Below, piece after piece: positions 2,754 through 22,217 of a stretch of DNA of 43,553 bases. Location of the stretch: the NCBI GenBank assembly GCA_949289445.1, contig CASEOD010000150.1, forward strand, positions 1 to 43,553, read 5' to 3'. This DNA is from an uncultured Eubacteriales bacterium (GTDB lineage: Bacteria > Bacillota > Clostridia > Peptostreptococcales > Anaerovoracaceae). The stretch's first letter is position 1, and each line of letters opens with the position of its first letter. The translations under genes were made by a program, and so were the position numbers. Below the pieces are notes generated by a model. The model saw only the letters and a program-made list of their open reading frames with translations, made no database searches and was not told the DNA's origin.

Positions 2754-4463
2754 TTAAGCTTCTTTTCGGGCCATTTCTTCTTCCAGTTCTCTGTAGGCGA
2801 CTTTTCCCACCAGCGTCTTCGGCAAAGAATCTCTGATTTCCAGTCTCTTCGGCAGAGCATATTTCGCCACGTTCTTTTCCAGATGCTTCATTATAGAGGC
2901 CTTTGTCTCTTCATTAGGCAAATATCCGGGTTTCAGTACGACAAAAGCGATAACCTTCTGGATTTTCAGAGGGTCCGGCACTCCGATTACACAACTCATA
3001 TGTACTGCTTCATGTGCGTCAAGCACATTTTCAATCTGAGACGGATAAACATTGTATCCGCTGGTAACGATCATTCTCTTGATTCTCTGGCGGAAATATA
3101 CGAATCCGTCATCATCCATCATGCCCAGATCTCCCGTATGCAGCCAGGTGAGCCCGTCATCATGAACCTTCAGGGTATCAGCAGTCTCCTCAGGCTGATT
3201 GATGTACTTCATCATCACCGTAGGCCCGGAAAGACAGATCTCGCCTTCTTCTCCGTAAGGCACCTCTTCCGTGGTTCCCACTTTGACAATTTTGTAGTAA
3301 GTGTCAGGAAACGGAAGTCCGATGCTTCCCTCTTTCTCCATATGTACCGGTGTCAGACAGCTTGCTGTCACGCATTCTGTCGTGCCGTAACCTTCGCGGA
3401 CAACAATGTGCGCACCGTGAGATTTGAGAAATGCGTCGAAACGTTTTTTCAGTTCGATGGACAGCGAGTCACCTCCGCTGAATACTCCTTTCAGGCATGA
3501 CAGATTCACCTTATCCAGACTTGGCAGACGCAGCAGAGCCTCATAAAGGGTCGGTACTCCGGCAATAAAATTCGGGCGATGCTTTTTCAGGAGTTTGGCA
3601 TAGCTTTCAGGGGTGAATCTCGGAATCAGGATACATCTTCCTCCGTTTGCCACCATGGAATGAATGCTGACACCCAGACCGAAGCCGTGGAACATAGGCA
3701 TAACAGCCAGCATTTTGTCTCCCGGCTTGAACATCATATTCGTCGCAATGATCTGGGCGGCAAGAGCATTAAAATTCAGATTGGAAAGGAGAATTCCCTT
3801 CATGGTTCCGGTGGTGCCTCCGCTGTACAGAATAACGGCAGGATCTTTACTTTCCCGTTTTACGCGATATTCTGCTTTATAGGATTTTCCGTTTTTGATG
3901 AAATTGTTCCACCAGATAAGAACGGCGTCTTTGGGTACCTTCTTCACCTTTCTTCCTTCCACCAGATAGTAACCTTTTTTCTTGATAGGACTGAGCACAT
4001 CCTTGACACTGGTGATGATCAGACTGCGAAGAGGCACATTCTGCCTGATGTTTTCAAATTTTCCATACATCTGATCCAGTGCAAGGCACACTGCGCTGCC
4101 CGACTCCCTGATGGTGAATTCTATCTCCTTTTCACTGGAAAGAGGATGCACCATATTGGCAATGGCCCCTACAAGATTCACCGCATAGAACATGACCATG
4201 GTCTGCGGCGCATTAGGCATACAGATAGTGACCGCCTCTCCCTCTTTCACGCCGATCGCCTTCAGCGCTCTGGCGCAGTCATTGATCTCTCTGATAAACA
4301 TCTTATAGGTAGTTCTGCTTCCCATAAAATCATAAGCAATATAGTCGGGATACTTCTCCGCAATAGATGCCACTGCTTCATACATAGAACCCTGTCTGTA
4401 TTCCAGATGGGCAGGCACGCCGCCCAGATTCTTAATCCAGGGTGTTTTAACCTCTGTTGTCAT
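2754..4463 (-). CDS. AMP-forming long-chain acyl-CoA ligase (FadD-like)
   Basis: 569 residues, ANL superfamily. The family activates a carboxylic acid with ATP to an acyl-adenylate and transfers it to CoA. Seen: nucleotide-binding loop YSGGTTGTMKG (213-223), YGTTE (359-363), TGD (443-445), hinge region around FRQRIKRMIVTSG (457-469) and the C-terminal catalytic lysine region LPKTLVGKVAYREL (Lys554). In the first loop Met replaces the usual Pro. A segment of about 40 residues (150-192) with aromatic and basic residues is an insertion relative to short family members. The start ATG has an AAAGGAGG site 9 bases upstream and overlaps the end of the upstream acyltransferase gene by 17 bases, so the two are translated together. 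The natural acid substrate cannot be read from the sequence. Confidence 0.85.
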   Translation of the reverse strand: MTTEVKTPWIKNLGGVPAHLEYRQGSMYEAVASIAEKYPDYIAYDFMGSRTTYKMFIREINDCARALKAIGVKEGEAVTICMPNAPQTMVMFYAVNLVGAIANMVHPLSSEKEIEFTIRESGSAVCLALDQMYGKFENIRQNVPLRSLIITSVKDVLSPIKKKGYYLVEGRKVKKVPKDAVLIWWNNFIKNGKSYKAEYRVKRESKDPAVILYSGGTTGTMKGILLSNLNFNALAAQIIATNMMFKPGDKMLAVMPMFHGFGLGVSIHSMVANGGRCILIPRFTPESYAKLLKKHRPNFIAGVPTLYEALLRLPSLDKVNLSCLKGVFSGGDSLSIELKKRFDAFLKSHGAHIVVREGYGTTECVTASCLTPVHMEKEGSIGLPFPDTYYKIVKVGTTEEVPYGEEGEICLSGPTVMMKYINQPEETADTLKVHDDGLTWLHTGDLGMMDDDGFVYFRQRIKRMIVTSGYNVYPSQIENVLDAHEAVHMSCVIGVPDPLKIQKVIAFVVLKPGYLPNEETKASIMKHLEKNVAKYALPKRLEIRDSLPKTLVGKVAYRELEEEMARKEA

Positions 4464-15866: not shown

Positions 15867-17228
15867 TCATCTGAAGCTTTCCTCAGACAGCAATATCTTC
15901 GCAAGCGCAACCGCAAAAATCTTTCCGCAGCAGATCAGGGTGTCGGTCGTGATGTATTCGTTGACTTCATGGCAGGTGTCTTCATCCTCAGGGAAAAGCG
16001 GACCCCACGATACGATGCCCGGCATGGCCTTGGCATAGGTTCCTCCATACTCCAGAGAAAACCGGTTCTTTCTGCCTGCAGCCTCTTCATAGGCCTCAGC
16101 AAATACCCTGAGAAACGGTCGCTGACTGGATACGTAGACTGCCTGCTGCAGAGAACTGATTTCCAGTGTGCCTCCCAGGCTCTCGGCAAGATGGCGGAAG
16201 CGGTCCACAATGTCCTCCGGCTTATTTCCGTAAGCGAAACGGATATTCACATTAACTGTCACGTCATTTTTTTCTGTGCGGACAACTGTGGGAGACAGGA
16301 CGTTCCGATGGACAAACTCGCCGTTAAAGTATTCGCTTTCACTGTAAATACCCATCGGTTTTCCGTAGACATCCTTCAGTTTTTCACTGAGTTTCTGTAA
16401 AACTTCCAGAAGGCGGTTTTCTTTCAAATCCGCTTCCGCAAGTTTCTCCGCCATGATGAACAGGGCGTTTTCTCCCCTTTCCGGCTGACAGGAATGAACG
16501 CTCTTTCCGACGGCCTCCACGGTTTTTTCACAGATTTTCTCCCCTTTTCGATATTCTGTCAAAACAGCTGTGCAGCGATCCGGTACGATATTGTTGACAG
16601 TTCCTGCCTGCAAACCGGTCAGATACCATCCGTCTTCAGCGCCGCCATGATCTGCCGCAAACCGCAGCAGCAGATCCATGTCCCCTTTTTCAATATTGCA
16701 GACAGGAAATTCTCCGTCAGGTGTAAATCCATAATCAGGCAGAGGGTTTTCTCTGACATAAGCCTCCATGTCATCCCACTCTGTTTCCTCCTGAGTTCCC
16801 ATTATCATCTGAACTTTTTTATAAAGGGGCTGTCCGCAGTCTTTCACGGCTTTCATCGCATAAAGACATGCTATGATCGGTCCCTTGTCATCAAGGGTCC
16901 CCCTTCCGTAAAGTTTTCCGTCAAGACGGGTGAGCGTAAAAGGATCTCTGTTCCACGAAGACAGATCTCCCGGCGGCACCACATCGACATGCGTGAGAAT
17001 CCCTACAGTTTCAGCGCCTTCTCCCATGGAAACCACGCCTACACGGCCGTCTGCCTTTACCGCCGTATCAAAACCCATCTCTTCGGCAAGATGCAGTATA
17101 TAGTCCAGAGCCTCTTTCACCCGGTGCCGATCTCCGGAAATACCCGGAATCTTTACGAAGCCCTCCAGATCTTTGATCATCAGTTCTTCGCACTCTTCTA
17201 TAGTCTGCTTCAGTTTTTCTGTATTCAC
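15867..17228 (-). CDS. pepV: M20 family dipeptidase PepV-like
   Basis: 453 residues from the GTG at 17228, chosen because AAAAGGTG lies 9 bases upstream; an in-frame GTG at 17240 overlaps that site. PepV is a cytoplasmic di-zinc amino-dipeptidase. Seen: HVDVVPPGD (first zinc His/Asp), GRGTLDDKGP (bridging Asp), GTQEETEWDD (catalytic Glu pair), and a lid domain between about residues 185 and 325. The C-terminal EYGGTYAKAM and DTCHEVNEY complete the site. It follows the LysO-type exporter by 44 bases, so both share the lysO promoter and leader RNA. Together they suggest dipeptide breakdown followed by export of an excess amino acid, an inference from pairing. Confidence 0.9.
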   Translation of the reverse strand: MNTEKLKQTIEECEELMIKDLEGFVKIPGISGDRHRVKEALDYILHLAEEMGFDTAVKADGRVGVVSMGEGAETVGILTHVDVVPPGDLSSWNRDPFTLTRLDGKLYGRGTLDDKGPIIACLYAMKAVKDCGQPLYKKVQMIMGTQEETEWDDMEAYVRENPLPDYGFTPDGEFPVCNIEKGDMDLLLRFAADHGGAEDGWYLTGLQAGTVNNIVPDRCTAVLTEYRKGEKICEKTVEAVGKSVHSCQPERGENALFIMAEKLAEADLKENRLLEVLQKLSEKLKDVYGKPMGIYSESEYFNGEFVHRNVLSPTVVRTEKNDVTVNVNIRFAYGNKPEDIVDRFRHLAESLGGTLEISSLQQAVYVSSQRPFLRVFAEAYEEAAGRKNRFSLEYGGTYAKAMPGIVSWGPLFPEDEDTCHEVNEYITTDTLICCGKIFAVALAKILLSEESFR

Positions 17229-17271
17229 TGATGTATTCACCTTTTTTCCTTTCCGGCCTTTTCTTCGCCAT

Positions 17272-18282
17272 TTATAACCAGTTTAGAATCATCGGTACAA
17301 CCACAGGTACCGCTGCGCTTTCCACAACACCGCACAAAAAAGAATATACGGCGATATCGCTCCCTGTAGATCTCTCAATAATGGGAAGGCATACGTCCAT
17401 AGAAGAGCAGGCCGGTACAGCCACCGCTTCAAGATATCCTGCTTTTTCGGCGATCAGAGGGATAATCAGTACAGAAATCAGTTCCCGCAATACGTTGTGC
17501 ATAAAAGAAACCGCACCGGCAGTCACCAGTCCGGCCTCCAGTATTATTCCCGGTGCCAGACTGTACCAGCCGAATCCCGCGCCGACAGCCAGAGCCTCTT
17601 TCATCGAAAAAGCCGGAAGAAAAAAAGAACATATTCCCGCACCAAACAGAGTTCCCGCCATGATGGCAAAAGGAAAGGCCGCCACCCTGAATCCGACCTG
17701 CCGGAAATGCTGAACGACCGTTCCGTCTACCCCCATATCGAATCCGACAAAAAACAGAAGTACGCAAAGACCCACATTGATCAGTTTCCCTGTCAGTGCG
17801 GAAAACCATGTCATATCAGAAAAAAGATTTCCTGCCGCAAAATGTCCGAAGGCCAGTCCTCCTGCCACACAGACCACGATGATCAGTGTCATGACGGAGA
17901 ATCTCTTTTCTCCCTTTTCTGTCTGTTCTGCCGCAGCCCCGTCTTCCTCGGCAAGTTCTGGCGGCGGTGTAACTGTTGCTGTACCTGTCCGCAGCCGGCC
18001 TGTTCTGTCAATTCCCATCAGTTTTCTCAGCAACATAATGAAAAGGACTGAAAAAAAGATGGCAAATATGGTAATGACAAAGGCATAGAGACCGATGGAA
18101 TTGAGATTTTCAATCACCTGCGGGTTGGCCCCCATGCGCATACCCATTGTAAATATCAAGACGATCATAGCTGCCGTCTGCAGCCGGCCTGTCCGGCAAA
18201 GCAGTTCCTTCCTTCTGCGAAGTCTTCCTCCTGTAAAGCAGCCGATCGCCGCCATTGTCAAATACAATGCCAAATCACCCAT
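17272..18282 (-). CDS. lysO: LysO family amino-acid exporter
   Basis: 336 residues with about eight hydrophobic segments. The C-terminal two thirds match the LysO/DUF340 family (YbjE in E. coli, lysine efflux): AGFGWYSLAPGII, then HNVLRELISVLIIPLIAEK and VESAAVPVVVPMIL. A hydrophilic, Glu/Ala-rich linker (about residues 95-130) separates an N-terminal membrane unit from the C-terminal one. The ATG lacks a close Shine-Dalgarno sequence; GGAAG lies about 8 bases upstream. The gene has a strong promoter (18617-18590) and a 300-base leader with an extensive hairpin ending in a U-tract, so expression is probably controlled by transcription attenuation. Lysine as the substrate is inferred from the family. 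Confidence 0.85.
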   Translation of the reverse strand: MGDLALYLTMAAIGCFTGGRLRRRKELLCRTGRLQTAAMIVLIFTMGMRMGANPQVIENLNSIGLYAFVITIFAIFFSVLFIMLLRKLMGIDRTGRLRTGTATVTPPPELAEEDGAAAEQTEKGEKRFSVMTLIIVVCVAGGLAFGHFAAGNLFSDMTWFSALTGKLINVGLCVLLFFVGFDMGVDGTVVQHFRQVGFRVAAFPFAIMAGTLFGAGICSFFLPAFSMKEALAVGAGFGWYSLAPGIILEAGLVTAGAVSFMHNVLRELISVLIIPLIAEKAGYLEAVAVPACSSMDVCLPIIERSTGSDIAVYSFLCGVVESAAVPVVVPMILNWL

Positions 18283-18322
18283 AACAAGCTTCCAAAAGTC
18301 CTTTCACCGCCGAATTGAAGAC

Positions 18323-18484
18323 AAAAAAATAAAGTACCGACTGTTTCTGCTGTAACTGTAATTTCCTCTCTCAAAGGTTCCATCTTAGATATCTGCTGAG
18401 AATCTGCAGAGCGTGTACTGCAAGTACTCAGTCTTCTAAGCTTCAGCTTTGTGAAATTATCCGTTCAGTGTCACAGTCGGTACT
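18323..18484 (-). ncRNA. Structured leader RNA with built-in terminator, candidate novel cis-regulatory RNA
   Basis: Read on the minus strand, a perfect 12-bp helix (18484-18473 with 18344-18333) encloses 128 bases and runs into TTATTTTTTTG (18332-18322). Inside, helices nest in register: 18469-18466/18358-18355 (4 bp), 18459-18453/18365-18359 (7), 18451-18447/18376-18372 (5), 18440-18435/18389-18384 (6), 18431-18427/18400-18396 (5), 18422-18418/18409-18405 (5), with an 8-base apical loop (18417-18410). This totals 44 Watson-Crick pairs separated by internal loops. A further 6-bp complement (18513-18508 with 18311-18306) could enclose all of it. GTAC (18494-18491) can pair with part of the 5' arm as a weak alternative. 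I see no L-box (lysine) or T-box signature. Confidence 0.7.
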
Positions 18485-18589
18485 ATCTCTGTACTTCAAA
18501 CACTTCTGGCGGTCTCACCTCTTTCTTACGGAACTTCTTCCTCCGTTTATTTTTAAGCTTTAAATCTCTTTATCGCTTTTTGTAATTAA

Positions 18590-18617
18590 AGTATAACACC
18601 AAAAGAGAAAATGTCAA
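18590..18617 (-). promoter_or_regulatory. Strong promoter of the lysO-pepV unit
   Basis: On the minus strand TTGACA (18617-18612), 16-base spacer, TATACT (18595-18590). Transcription would begin near 18583, about 300 bases before the lysO start. Between promoter and the structured RNA lies a purine-rich stretch with a small ACGGA/TCCGT hairpin; nothing coding is seen in 18283-18734. Confidence 0.85.
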
Positions 18618-18688
18618 TACCTTTTTCTGAATTTTTTTATTTTTGTAAATTCGGTGCATATGCAGGATGATTTGCTTCTCGGATACAG

Positions 18689-18716
18689 AAAAGAGGCGGA
18701 TTGCACCGCCTCTTTT
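18689..18716 (-). terminator. Intrinsic terminator after the HIT protein gene
   Basis: A perfect 11-bp stem with a 6-nt loop (18716-18706 and 18699-18689), ending in CUCUUUU on the minus strand, 18 bases after the HIT stop codon. Confidence 0.85.
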
Positions 18717-18734
18717 CATTTTGGAACCGGTTCA

Positions 18735-19076
18735 TTAGCCCGGTGGCCAGGTCATCTTTCTCTTTCCGAGAATATGGAAATGAAGATGCTTTACTGTCTG
18801 GAAAGCGTCTTCTCCATTATTGCTGACAACTCTGTAACCGTTTTCCAGTCCCAGATCAGCCGCAATCTCATGGATTTTGAACATGATATATCCCAGCAGT
18901 TCCTGATCTTCTTCCTTCACATCGTCTAATGACGAAATATGTTTCTTTGGAATGACCAGCACATGAACAGGGGCCTGAGGATCCAGATCATGAAACGCTA
19001 TGATCCGATCGTCTTCATAAGCCACATTGGATGGGATTTCATGATTTGCAATCATGCAGAAAATGCAATCAGCCAT
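18735..19076 (-). CDS. HIT family nucleotide-binding protein (HinT-like)
   Basis: 113 residues. The family hydrolyses adenosine 5'-phosphoramidates and related aminoacyl-AMP conjugates. Seen: N-terminal CIFC (4-7) and MIANHEIPS, IPKKHISSL (43-50), and the histidine triad HLHFH (97-101). It overlaps the end of mtaB by 8 bases, so it is translated with it, and a strong terminator follows. HinT-type genes are common beside RNA-modification genes of this cluster. Confidence 0.93.
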   Translation of the reverse strand: MADCIFCMIANHEIPSNVAYEDDRIIAFHDLDPQAPVHVLVIPKKHISSLDDVKEEDQELLGYIMFKIHEIAADLGLENGYRVVSNNGEDAFQTVKHLHFHILGKRKMTWPPG

Positions 19077-20483: not shown

Positions 20484-22217
20484 ATGGCAAAGAAATTTCT
20501 ATCTGTTTTTCTTCTCGGTCTTCTGATCTTTGTCACTGTCTGTGAAAAATCAGCGCCGATACCTGTTGCAAAAGCCACAGAGGATGGAGAAGAAGACTAC
20601 ATCAAATGGGTGGATTTTAATGTGACCTATGAGGCCCTCGAAGATGCCATGAATCTGGATATTGAAACTTACCAGCAGGATCTTCATCTTCCCTGGACAG
20701 AAAGTCTGGCTTATCTGGCCTGCCGTAACGGCGGCGACTTTTCCGGCTATAAAAAAAGCCAGCTGGACAGTTTCGCCGAAAAAAGAACTGCCGGCAGTTC
20801 CATAGAAGATCTGACAAAGGACTTCAAAGTCTATGATTATTATTTTAAAGCCTATTCAGCTGTCATCGGCAATTTCCTCGGGATGCGGGAAGACGGCACT
20901 TACGGACTGACTGCCTATTCTCCCGTTGCCGCAGGATACTGGTATACTGAAAGTGATGATTTCGGAAACGGCAGAAGCTACGGTTTCGCCAGAAAGCATC
21001 TCGGCCATGACATGTTCTGTTCTCCGGGCACGCCCATTATGGCGGTAGAAGACGGAACAGTAGAGGCCCTGGGCTGGAACCAGTACGGCGGCTGGCGAAT
21101 CGGCATCCGTTCCGGTGACGGGCAGCGGTATTATTACTATGCCCATCTCCGAAAAGACTCCCCCTATGCCGAAGAGCTGAAAATCGGAAGCAAGGTAAAT
21201 GCCGGACAGCTCATCGGCTATTCCGGTCAGACAGGATACAGCATCAAAGAGAATGTCAACAATATCGACGTGCCCCATCTGCACTTCGGTATGCAGCTCA
21301 TCTTTGACGAATCTCAGAAAGAATGTCTTGCAGAAATCTGGATCGATACTTACCCGCTGATAAGGCTCCTGTCAAAAAACTGCTCCGATCAGCTTTCTGC
21401 AGACAGCTCCCAGACAGCCTCTGTCCGGACTCCGTCCTTCGTAGATTCTCTGGCTGCCGCCGATCCGGCACCTGTAAAAGTCCCCATTCTCATGTATCAC
21501 GGTCTGACTGACAAACAGAGCATGATCAATGATTACTATATCTCCGCTGCTGATTTTGAGACTGATCTGGAATATCTCAAATCTCACGGCTACACAACGG
21601 TCACCATGACAGATCTGATCAACTATGTATATGATGAAACAGGAAAAGTCACTCTGCCGCAAAACCCGGTGATTCTCACTTTTGATGACGGTTTTCTCAA
21701 CAACCACACCTTTGCCACACCGCTGCTGAAAAAATACGGCATGAAAGCGGTTATCTCGGTTATCGGCAGTGCCTCAGAAGAAATGTCACAGACAAAATAC
21801 AAGAATGAAGCCTCCTGTGCCGTTACCTGGAGTCAGCTTCAGGAAATGGCAAACACCGGTCTCTGGGAAGTTCAGAACCACACCTACGATCTTCACAATA
21901 TCAAAGACGGTCGAAAAGGCGCCGGCAGGAAAACCGGGGAAAGCGAAGACTCCTATGAAAAGCTTCTGAAAGATGATCTGCAGCAGCTGCAGACCCAAAT
22001 CAGGGAAACCGTGGGCGTCACACCCAATACCTTCACCTGGCCTTTCGGCGCTTATACGCAGGAAAGCCGTCCTCTGCTGAAAGAAATGGGATTTCGGGCC
22101 ACTCTGAGCTGTGCTTCAGGTATCAACGAAATAAAAAAAGGCGATACGGAATGTCTGTATCTGCTGAAAAGAAACATCCGAAAACCGGGAACAGATATCA
22201 GTTCCTGTCTGTCATGA
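20484..22217 (+). CDS. Secreted M23 endopeptidase / NodB polysaccharide deacetylase fusion
   Basis: 577 residues; start supported by AAAGGA 8 bases upstream. An N-terminal signal or anchor (MAKKFLSVFLLGLLIFVTVC) is followed by an uncharacterised domain (30-160). The M23 (LytM-type) domain has His172 and Asp176 (HLGHD), His221 (YAHL) and HLH at 265-267, all zinc/catalytic positions, so it should cleave peptide cross-bridges. After a Ser/Ala linker (300-328) comes a NodB domain starting VPILMYHG (333-340), with TFDDGF (Asp401/Asp402) and His466/His471 as likely metal ligands, which should deacetylate peptidoglycan sugars. Both catalytic sets look intact. It is the only complete plus-strand gene here, and a possible SigE-type promoter suggests a sporulation role. 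Cell-wall remodelling is well supported; timing is inference. Confidence 0.88.
   Translation: MAKKFLSVFLLGLLIFVTVCEKSAPIPVAKATEDGEEDYIKWVDFNVTYEALEDAMNLDIETYQQDLHLPWTESLAYLACRNGGDFSGYKKSQLDSFAEKRTAGSSIEDLTKDFKVYDYYFKAYSAVIGNFLGMREDGTYGLTAYSPVAAGYWYTESDDFGNGRSYGFARKHLGHDMFCSPGTPIMAVEDGTVEALGWNQYGGWRIGIRSGDGQRYYYYAHLRKDSPYAEELKIGSKVNAGQLIGYSGQTGYSIKENVNNIDVPHLHFGMQLIFDESQKECLAEIWIDTYPLIRLLSKNCSDQLSADSSQTASVRTPSFVDSLAAADPAPVKVPILMYHGLTDKQSMINDYYISAADFETDLEYLKSHGYTTVTMTDLINYVYDETGKVTLPQNPVILTFDDGFLNNHTFATPLLKKYGMKAVISVIGSASEEMSQTKYKNEASCAVTWSQLQEMANTGLWEVQNHTYDLHNIKDGRKGAGRKTGESEDSYEKLLKDDLQQLQTQIRETVGVTPNTFTWPFGAYTQESRPLLKEMGFRATLSCASGINEIKKGDTECLYLLKRNIRKPGTDISSCLS

Follow-up and report, generated by a model that had tools for sequence, protein, structure and literature searches.

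The minus strand between hinT and lysO-pepV in the window (the whole 43,553-nt stretch of DNA analysed) carries a promoter-like site followed by a long hairpin, which raises the question of what kind of RNA this is and whether it serves the genes that it precedes. The original prediction was a structured leader RNA of unknown class that controls lysO-pepV and is switched by a ligand or protein that changes its fold. On the whole, the conserved, covarying terminator RNA outside Rfam has stood, and its belonging to lysO-pepV has not; the part conserved throughout the family described here, a core and the frame of a tiny ORF, was absent from that prediction. The features of the locus, with the basis for each, are as follows.

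15867..17240, minus strand: pepV-like M20 peptidase, the second downstream gene (domain match)
17272..18282, minus strand: lysO (PF03956), the next gene downstream (domain match)
18323..18333, minus strand: U-tract (sequence)
18333..18344, minus strand: terminator helix, 3′ arm (sequence)
18345..18472, minus strand: terminator hairpin interior (fold and genus alignment)
18473..18484, minus strand: terminator helix, 5′ arm, with a two-base overlap with the ORF stop codon (fold, covariation)
18483..18503, minus strand: predicted tiny ORF, GTG TTT GAA GTA CAG AGA TAG (MFEVQR*) (frame and stop position kept in relatives)
18501..18527, minus strand: core, AAGAAAGAGGTGAGACCGCCAGAAGTG, a 16S-tail complement (extended Shine-Dalgarno) that ends in the presumed start codon (pattern scans, duplex energy)
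18529..18545, minus strand: hairpin P1, CGGAGGAAGAAGTTCCG, immediately 5′ of the core (86% of cells paired, five genus loci)
18590..18617, minus strand: unit promoter, TTGACA-16-TATACT (11/12; best promoter-like site before the core in the listed relatives)
18689..18716, minus strand: hinT-terminator-like perfect 11-bp inverted repeat with a T-run (sequence inspected)
18735..19076, minus strand: hinT (HIT family), the upstream neighbour (domain match)

The near-consensus promoter of the original prediction is present: the minus-strand TTGACA-16-TATACT at 18617-18590 matches the consensus at 11 of 12 positions, and a TG precedes its -10. This was the sole promoter-like site reported by a promoter scan of both strands of 18200-18800, a count that carries little weight alone because shuffles of the same region average 0.9 such sites. 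Upstream, the inverted repeat at 18716-18689 would, judging from its sequence, end hinT transcription and part hinT from the unit. The window RNA, running from about 18583 to 18323, would be a leader of ~260 nt made up of a short 5′ region, P1, the core and a single long hairpin. Folding of 18580-18317 gave -70.3 kcal/mol (z = -3.86), and 0 of 200 dinucleotide shuffles were equally stable. A perfect 12-bp helix (18484-18473 with 18344-18333) directly adjoins the U-tract TTTATTTTTTT at 18333-18323, in agreement with the claim that the hairpin is itself the terminator, and inward from this helix the fold comprises 48 pairs in 9 stacks, close to the irregular hairpin of 44 pairs and seven helices that had been proposed. 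A terminator scan of 18200-18800 did not report the long hairpin, the loop of which far exceeds the 3-8 bases that the scan permits.

The check on helix covariation in homologues that the original prediction had called for came out in favour of the hairpin. In an alignment of five genus loci, both sides had changed in 10 of 41 pairs, versus 1-5 when the partners were slid, and 91.6% of cells paired, versus 37-53% with partners slid by 1-3 columns. Four of five covariation measures exceeded all 500 shuffles and the fifth (pair types) was reached by 39 of 500, in a test of five rows only whose consensus was derived from those same rows. P1 showed both-side changes in 3 of its 6 pairs across the five loci; in the shortest relative, L126, there is no room for it. 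As far as this alignment reaches, the long hairpin is real in the genus and its interior is a local elaboration: the domain at 18345..18472 is common to the hinT-linked genus copies and elsewhere has another length or is missing.

The RNA does not fall into a known class. None of the 4227 families of Rfam 15 matched in the window at gathering thresholds, in line with the unknown class originally proposed, and 18220-18680 searched up to E = 10 gave two weak matches only, to a snoRNA and a flavivirus frameshift element. The L-box and T-box motifs had been reported as not seen, and indeed the lysine riboswitch and T-box models matched neither the window at gathering thresholds nor 18220-18680 up to E = 10. 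Sixteen relative loci at gathering thresholds yielded three tRNAs and one ZTP riboswitch beside, and outside, an element; a set of 20 loci yielded no match, and 6S RNA did not appear among the Rfam results for the window and its relatives. The ZTP riboswitch (RF01750) lies at L091:562-642, minus strand, between the element and a purE-like gene. A riboswitch or T-box was rejected for want of Rfam support and of a conserved aptamer-like interior. The ligand-switched fold fared no better: an aptamer in the hairpin is unlikely because the interior and the 5′ domain vary or nearly vanish, the former spanning a simple loop to ~200 nt and the latter being almost absent in L126. We also rejected a passenger of mobile elements, as the window unit had no match in plasmids or phages and the core pattern occurred in a single viral contig that lacks the promoter-ORF-terminator arrangement. 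We found no description of the family in the one open-access library searched. By Rfam 15 and that literature search, the RNA family is undescribed.

Whether the unit belongs to lysO-pepV can be judged from its neighbours. In the window, 40 nt separate the U-tract from the start of lysO, a gap in which the promoter scan reported no site. A BLASTN search of 61 genomes, including that of the window, detected the unit in further members of the genus. Across the genus, it directly follows hinT at 5 of the 11 hinT loci with a readable downstream side. No two of these five hinT-linked units precede the same gene, and in two cases the next gene is convergent: lysO in the window, a convergent permease-like gene in genome G004, a guaA-like gene and rpsU, each with its own promoter-like site, in G006 and G008, respectively, and a convergent GntR-like gene in G009 (gene names outside the window were read from translations by eye, with no search behind them). 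Conversely, among 16 lysO loci examined, window included, the core was absent upstream of the 15 others (1-1.5 kb read each). lysO is found 1.8 kb (G004) and 2.6 kb (G009) downstream of the core, behind other genes, so that it is nearby in three of the five hinT-linked genomes and directly adjacent in the window only. In G007, hinT and lysO share one contig, ~3 kb apart, and the unit is missing. A second copy type follows a DUF1848-like gene in G004, G005 and G009. Across the wider family of 74 elements, a next ORF was called for 70 and was convergent in 23 of these 70, with calls that are automatic (at least 70 aa), some of them spurious, and with many elements from closely related genomes. 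Because the next genes vary and are often convergent, and because the upstream stretch read at other lysO loci lacks the core, the unit appears independent of lysO-pepV. As read from these comparisons, it is not a conserved lysO-pepV leader, contrary to the original prediction. The lysO-pepV genes of the window, lying just downstream, could receive read-through as a local circumstance.

Several further features were observed at these loci. After hinT of G007 and G011, where the core was not found, loci L201 and L205 carry, from 1842 on (hinT orientation), several inverted copies of TGTGCATATTT / AAATATGCACA that resemble an operator array. In the window, 20484-22217 on the plus strand is a single ORF with both a peptidase M23 and a polysaccharide deacetylase domain, and M23-deacetylase-like ORFs stand at the same place in G004, G006 and G009. 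At ~3330-3450 of the E. limosum locus L190, a CBS-like gene (named by eye) begins within ~35 nt after the element, resembling lysO in the window, and a promoter would not fit in the gap.

By its sequence, the window unit looks like a member of a family spread over three families of Clostridia, namely Anaerovoracaceae, f64 (which holds Eubacterium limosum) and f2. Pattern scans for the core, allowing up to 2 or 3 mismatches, matched 19 of 197 genomes in the window's taxonomic family, 33 of 345 in its order (G347, at least, seems to be a false match), 8 of 391 in its class (three of them apparently false), 23 of 40 in f64 and 12 of 41 in f2 (two false), counts that depend on the pattern and that diverged copies may escape. 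An exact-pattern scan of one genome per species (84,980 species) returned 23 contigs, including those of Emergencia timonensis, Anaerovorax odorimutans, Clostridium aminobutyricum and Bacilliculturomica massiliensis. This set was chosen without regard to the presence of a terminator; 22 of the 23 contigs show one, and L098 is cut by the contig end. Some genomes hold two or three copies, and the E. limosum genome G797 has three pattern matches, with cores at 46328, 3746216 and 3752897 on the plus strand of its contig C1. In G517, a copy lies at 2379767-2379791 of contig C1, minus strand. Two elements lie ~360 nt apart in G682 and G825 (entry loci: L192 = G682, L188 = G822, L189 = G797), and E. 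limosum-like genomes have two copies 1.6 or 6.7 kb apart and a third elsewhere.

For the wider element set, pattern hits judged to be non-elements were dropped (L145, L146, L150, L176, L187, L147 and L116; L116 showed no terminator, and no match was returned for L147). Core hits without a terminator in reach were also dropped, uncounted, so that nearness of a terminator is partly a selection criterion in this set. Four of the 78 records kept had a T-run beyond 300 nt (f2 first cores) and were removed, and the resulting 74 elements were used for next ORFs, stem start, GGA counts and stop position. Codon and pN/pS counts come from a different set, 74 records whose frame spans 30 nt or more; L126 falls below this length filter.

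Throughout the family, the order of parts is a promoter-like site, a 5′ part, the core, a short ORF and an intrinsic terminator. The 5′ part can be as short as 19 nt, counted from the -10 to the core in L126, or reach several hundred nt, and the terminator interior ranges from a plain loop (L104, L111) to ~200 nt (L089, L125). Long 5′ parts in f64 (L164, L169, L188, L192) share a stretch of approximately CUUAUAGCRUAUAGAGACUUAAG upstream of the core, which occurs twice in L169. Before the hairpin, the conserved core has the consensus GAAAGRGGUGAGWCC-N4-GAN-RUG, with local variants GGAGUGAG and a form one base shorter in f2. The f2 loci that we read have two cores per presumed RNA, the first of them without a start codon.

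The core is complementary to the 3′ tail of 16S rRNA. We located the 16S end GGATCACCTCCTTTCT in 7 of 15 genomes, the pattern having no match in the other 8, the window's own among these. The duplex of the window core with GGAUCACCUCCUUUCU has an energy of -17.9 kcal/mol, and for 57 distinct cores the pairing energy with the 16S tail has a median of -19.5 kcal/mol and spans -14.4 to -21.7. For comparison, 150 long local ORFs, with the best of many starts taken, reached -18.7 kcal/mol at best and -10.0 at the median; the median core thus pairs more strongly than all 150 local genes, and the window core is beaten by two of them, which, like the existence of cores as weak as -14.4, speaks against the explanation favoured below. 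Mononucleotide-shuffled cores had a median of -8.8 kcal/mol, and among 6000 random stretches of 28 nt, sampled from loci in which elements are present, 0.17% matched the strength of the window core (best -21.1). The complementarity is interrupted at fixed places, and the distance from GGUGA to the start codon, at 11 nt, is above the usual gap and counts against the explanation that we favour below; given both, initiation may be slow or need a special geometry. As no start codon follows the first cores of the two-core f2 RNAs, initiation may not be the only role of the core, another point against that explanation. An extension of the pairing into helix 45 of 16S rRNA (GGCUGG in these genomes) was considered and set aside, the computed gain being too unspecific to claim.

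Following the core, a tiny reading frame runs into the terminator. Codon 6 in the 74 records of at least 30 nt is ATG in 44, GTG in 24, GTA in 3, and GTT, ACT and ACG in 1 each (the ACT case is a first core of L186); the 6 of 74 that are neither ATG nor GTG count against a translated frame as the best explanation has it. In main cores, the ORF extends 5-15 codons to its stop, which is TAA in 33, TGA in 22 and TAG in 19 records. In 37 of 44 non-redundant elements, the first in-frame stop lies between -6 and +9 nt from where the terminator 5′ arm begins, versus 3 and 10 of 44 for the other two frames. Counted from the first base of the stop, the outermost predicted stem pair begins 4 nt downstream at the latest in 72 of 74 elements. 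In the window, the stop shares two bases with the 12-bp helix. L126 is informative here, as it has one extra base and the ATG, the frame and the stop at the terminator all shift along with it. The predicted peptides show recurrent E and K/R endings and synonymous swaps. Pairwise pN/pS was 0.34 in frame versus 0.85 and 0.54 in the shifted frames, from pairs that are not independent, and ~0.47 versus 0.58 and 0.79 in 29 independent pairs, values that make the signal of coding selection weak by itself. A start at the GTG inside GGTGAG (MSPPE.../MSPKE...) would keep the same frame and tolerate the GTA, GTT and ACG cases. It is not preferred because its codons 2-5 give no sign of in-frame selection (a ratio of 0.51, versus 2.06 and 0.17 in the shifted frames) and L126 breaks its frame yet keeps the later ATG frame. 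Translational coupling to an ORF whose stop would be the TGA of GGTGA was rejected as well, no consistent upstream ORF being found.

The best explanation, to which we assign a probability of about 0.45, is a free-standing, ribosome-engaging RNA gene in which a ribosome at the stop codon would weaken the terminator. The separate unit, the core, its 16S complementarity, the reading frame and the overlap of stop and terminator are results of the sequence analysis; from them we infer transcription, translation, ribosome-dependent read-through and a biological role. With its own promoter and intrinsic terminator, the unit would form a free-standing RNA gene, on whose core ribosomes would load through extended Shine-Dalgarno pairing with the 16S 3′ tail. 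The ribosome would then translate 5-15 codons and sit at the stop codon on the terminator 5′ arm, and the RNA would end at the terminator or extend, depending on ribosome loading and release. Placed there, the ribosome would cover much of the 5′ arm. When the whole sequence as far as 13 nt from the stop's first base was left out of the fold, the median energy of 44 elements changed from -29.2 to -4.0 kcal/mol, and of the 12 bases that precede the U-tract a median of 6 stayed paired instead of 11 (6 instead of 12 in the window). After occlusion, 9 of the 44 stay more stable than -20 kcal/mol, the window among them at -28.3. Occlusion thus weakens the terminator on paper and leaves read-through unproven, because structure and 3′-arm pairing partly remain. 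The anatomy of a ribosome-mediated attenuator, a short ORF able to occlude a terminator, is present; a conserved downstream gene under its control was not found among the lysO loci, the hinT loci or the 70 next ORFs. The main weakness of this explanation is that, with a convergent next gene, read-through is without an obvious target. A bolder version, which we regard as unlikely, is that the family may constitute a new class of RNA in which the core is an antisense bait for the 16S tail and ribosome loading and release on the 5-15-codon ORF set a short versus an extended transcript. Such an RNA would be a gauge of free ribosomes or of translation termination, independent of neighbouring genes.

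The chief rival, which we consider doubtful though serious, is a trans-acting or ribosome-binding sRNA whose core would hold or compete for the 30S subunit via the 16S 3′ tail, or engage another target, the tiny ORF merely keeping the 3′ end translated and the terminator being a plain one. Free-standing units with a good promoter and convergent neighbours fit such an sRNA, as do the paired cores of f2, the first without a start codon, the two or three copies in some genomes, and a median 16S complementarity exceeding that of 150 ordinary genes. However, an RNA of this kind would not require a stop at the terminator, as seen in 37 of 44 elements, and complementarity that is broken at fixed places does not appear tuned for maximal pairing. 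We find it improbable that the unit is an ordinary gene encoding a very short functional peptide: the kept frame, the recurrent E and K/R endings and the synonymous swaps would be expected of one, but length (5-15 codons) and sequence vary, selection in the independent pairs is weak, and the overlap with the terminator arm itself constrains the end of the peptide.

The ligand- or protein-responsive leader attenuating lysO-pepV, as first proposed, now seems most improbable. It would explain why lysO stands 40 nt past the U-tract with no promoter-like site reported between, why the hairpin is structured and covaries in the genus, and why lysO recurs 1.8 and 2.6 kb downstream in G004 and G009; against it, the next gene is not conserved, the same RNA precedes unrelated genes, Rfam gives no match, and the hairpin interior is missing or different in relatives. 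A sponge for CsrA-type GGA-binding proteins would suit a purine-rich RNA (62% A+G) with a Shine-Dalgarno-like core, present twice in f2, but is scarcely credible given that GGA is not enriched over 74 elements (mean z -0.54), with single ones enriched (L106, z 3.5).

Public RNA-seq and ribosome-profiling data exist for both E. limosum and A. woodii (PMC7873083), with accessions GSE97613 for E. limosum and PRJEB33460 for the Acetobacterium-like G517, and a dRNA-seq study of E. limosum lists 100 intergenic TSSs (PMC5651825). If the length of the transcript is set by ribosome loading and no gene is linked, the preferred ribosome-engaging RNA would be a new bacterial way to read the state of translation; if not, the units would still be an undescribed, sometimes multi-copy RNA gene family. 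In either case, a one-off riboswitch guess gives way to a testable family of apparently free-standing RNAs that includes Eubacterium limosum.

Lysine riboswitches and T-boxes are leaders that stand before amino-acid genes and carry a terminator. Unlike them, the unit has no Rfam match and is not tied in relatives to amino-acid genes. Dual-function sRNAs such as SgrS and RNAIII are free-standing RNAs with a short ORF; they differ from the family described here, which has no known target region and whose conserved part is the core plus an ORF that ends in the terminator. Ribosome-mediated transcription attenuators with a uORF, for example the uORFC motifs before cysS, hflX and aroF, are like our elements in that a single RNA combines a short ORF with an intrinsic terminator within reach of the ribosome (PMC8632094). 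Those attenuators have one fixed downstream gene, whereas our elements precede varied and often convergent genes, their tiny peptides are without single-amino-acid runs, and their core complements the 16S tail over an extended stretch. Extended Shine-Dalgarno start sites are documented in Staphylococcus aureus and resemble our findings in pairing that reaches past the usual motif, non-standard start codons and small ORFs (PMC13009471). Unlike the S. aureus sites, the elements reported here combine a free-standing RNA, a terminator at the stop codon and a longer gap to the start.
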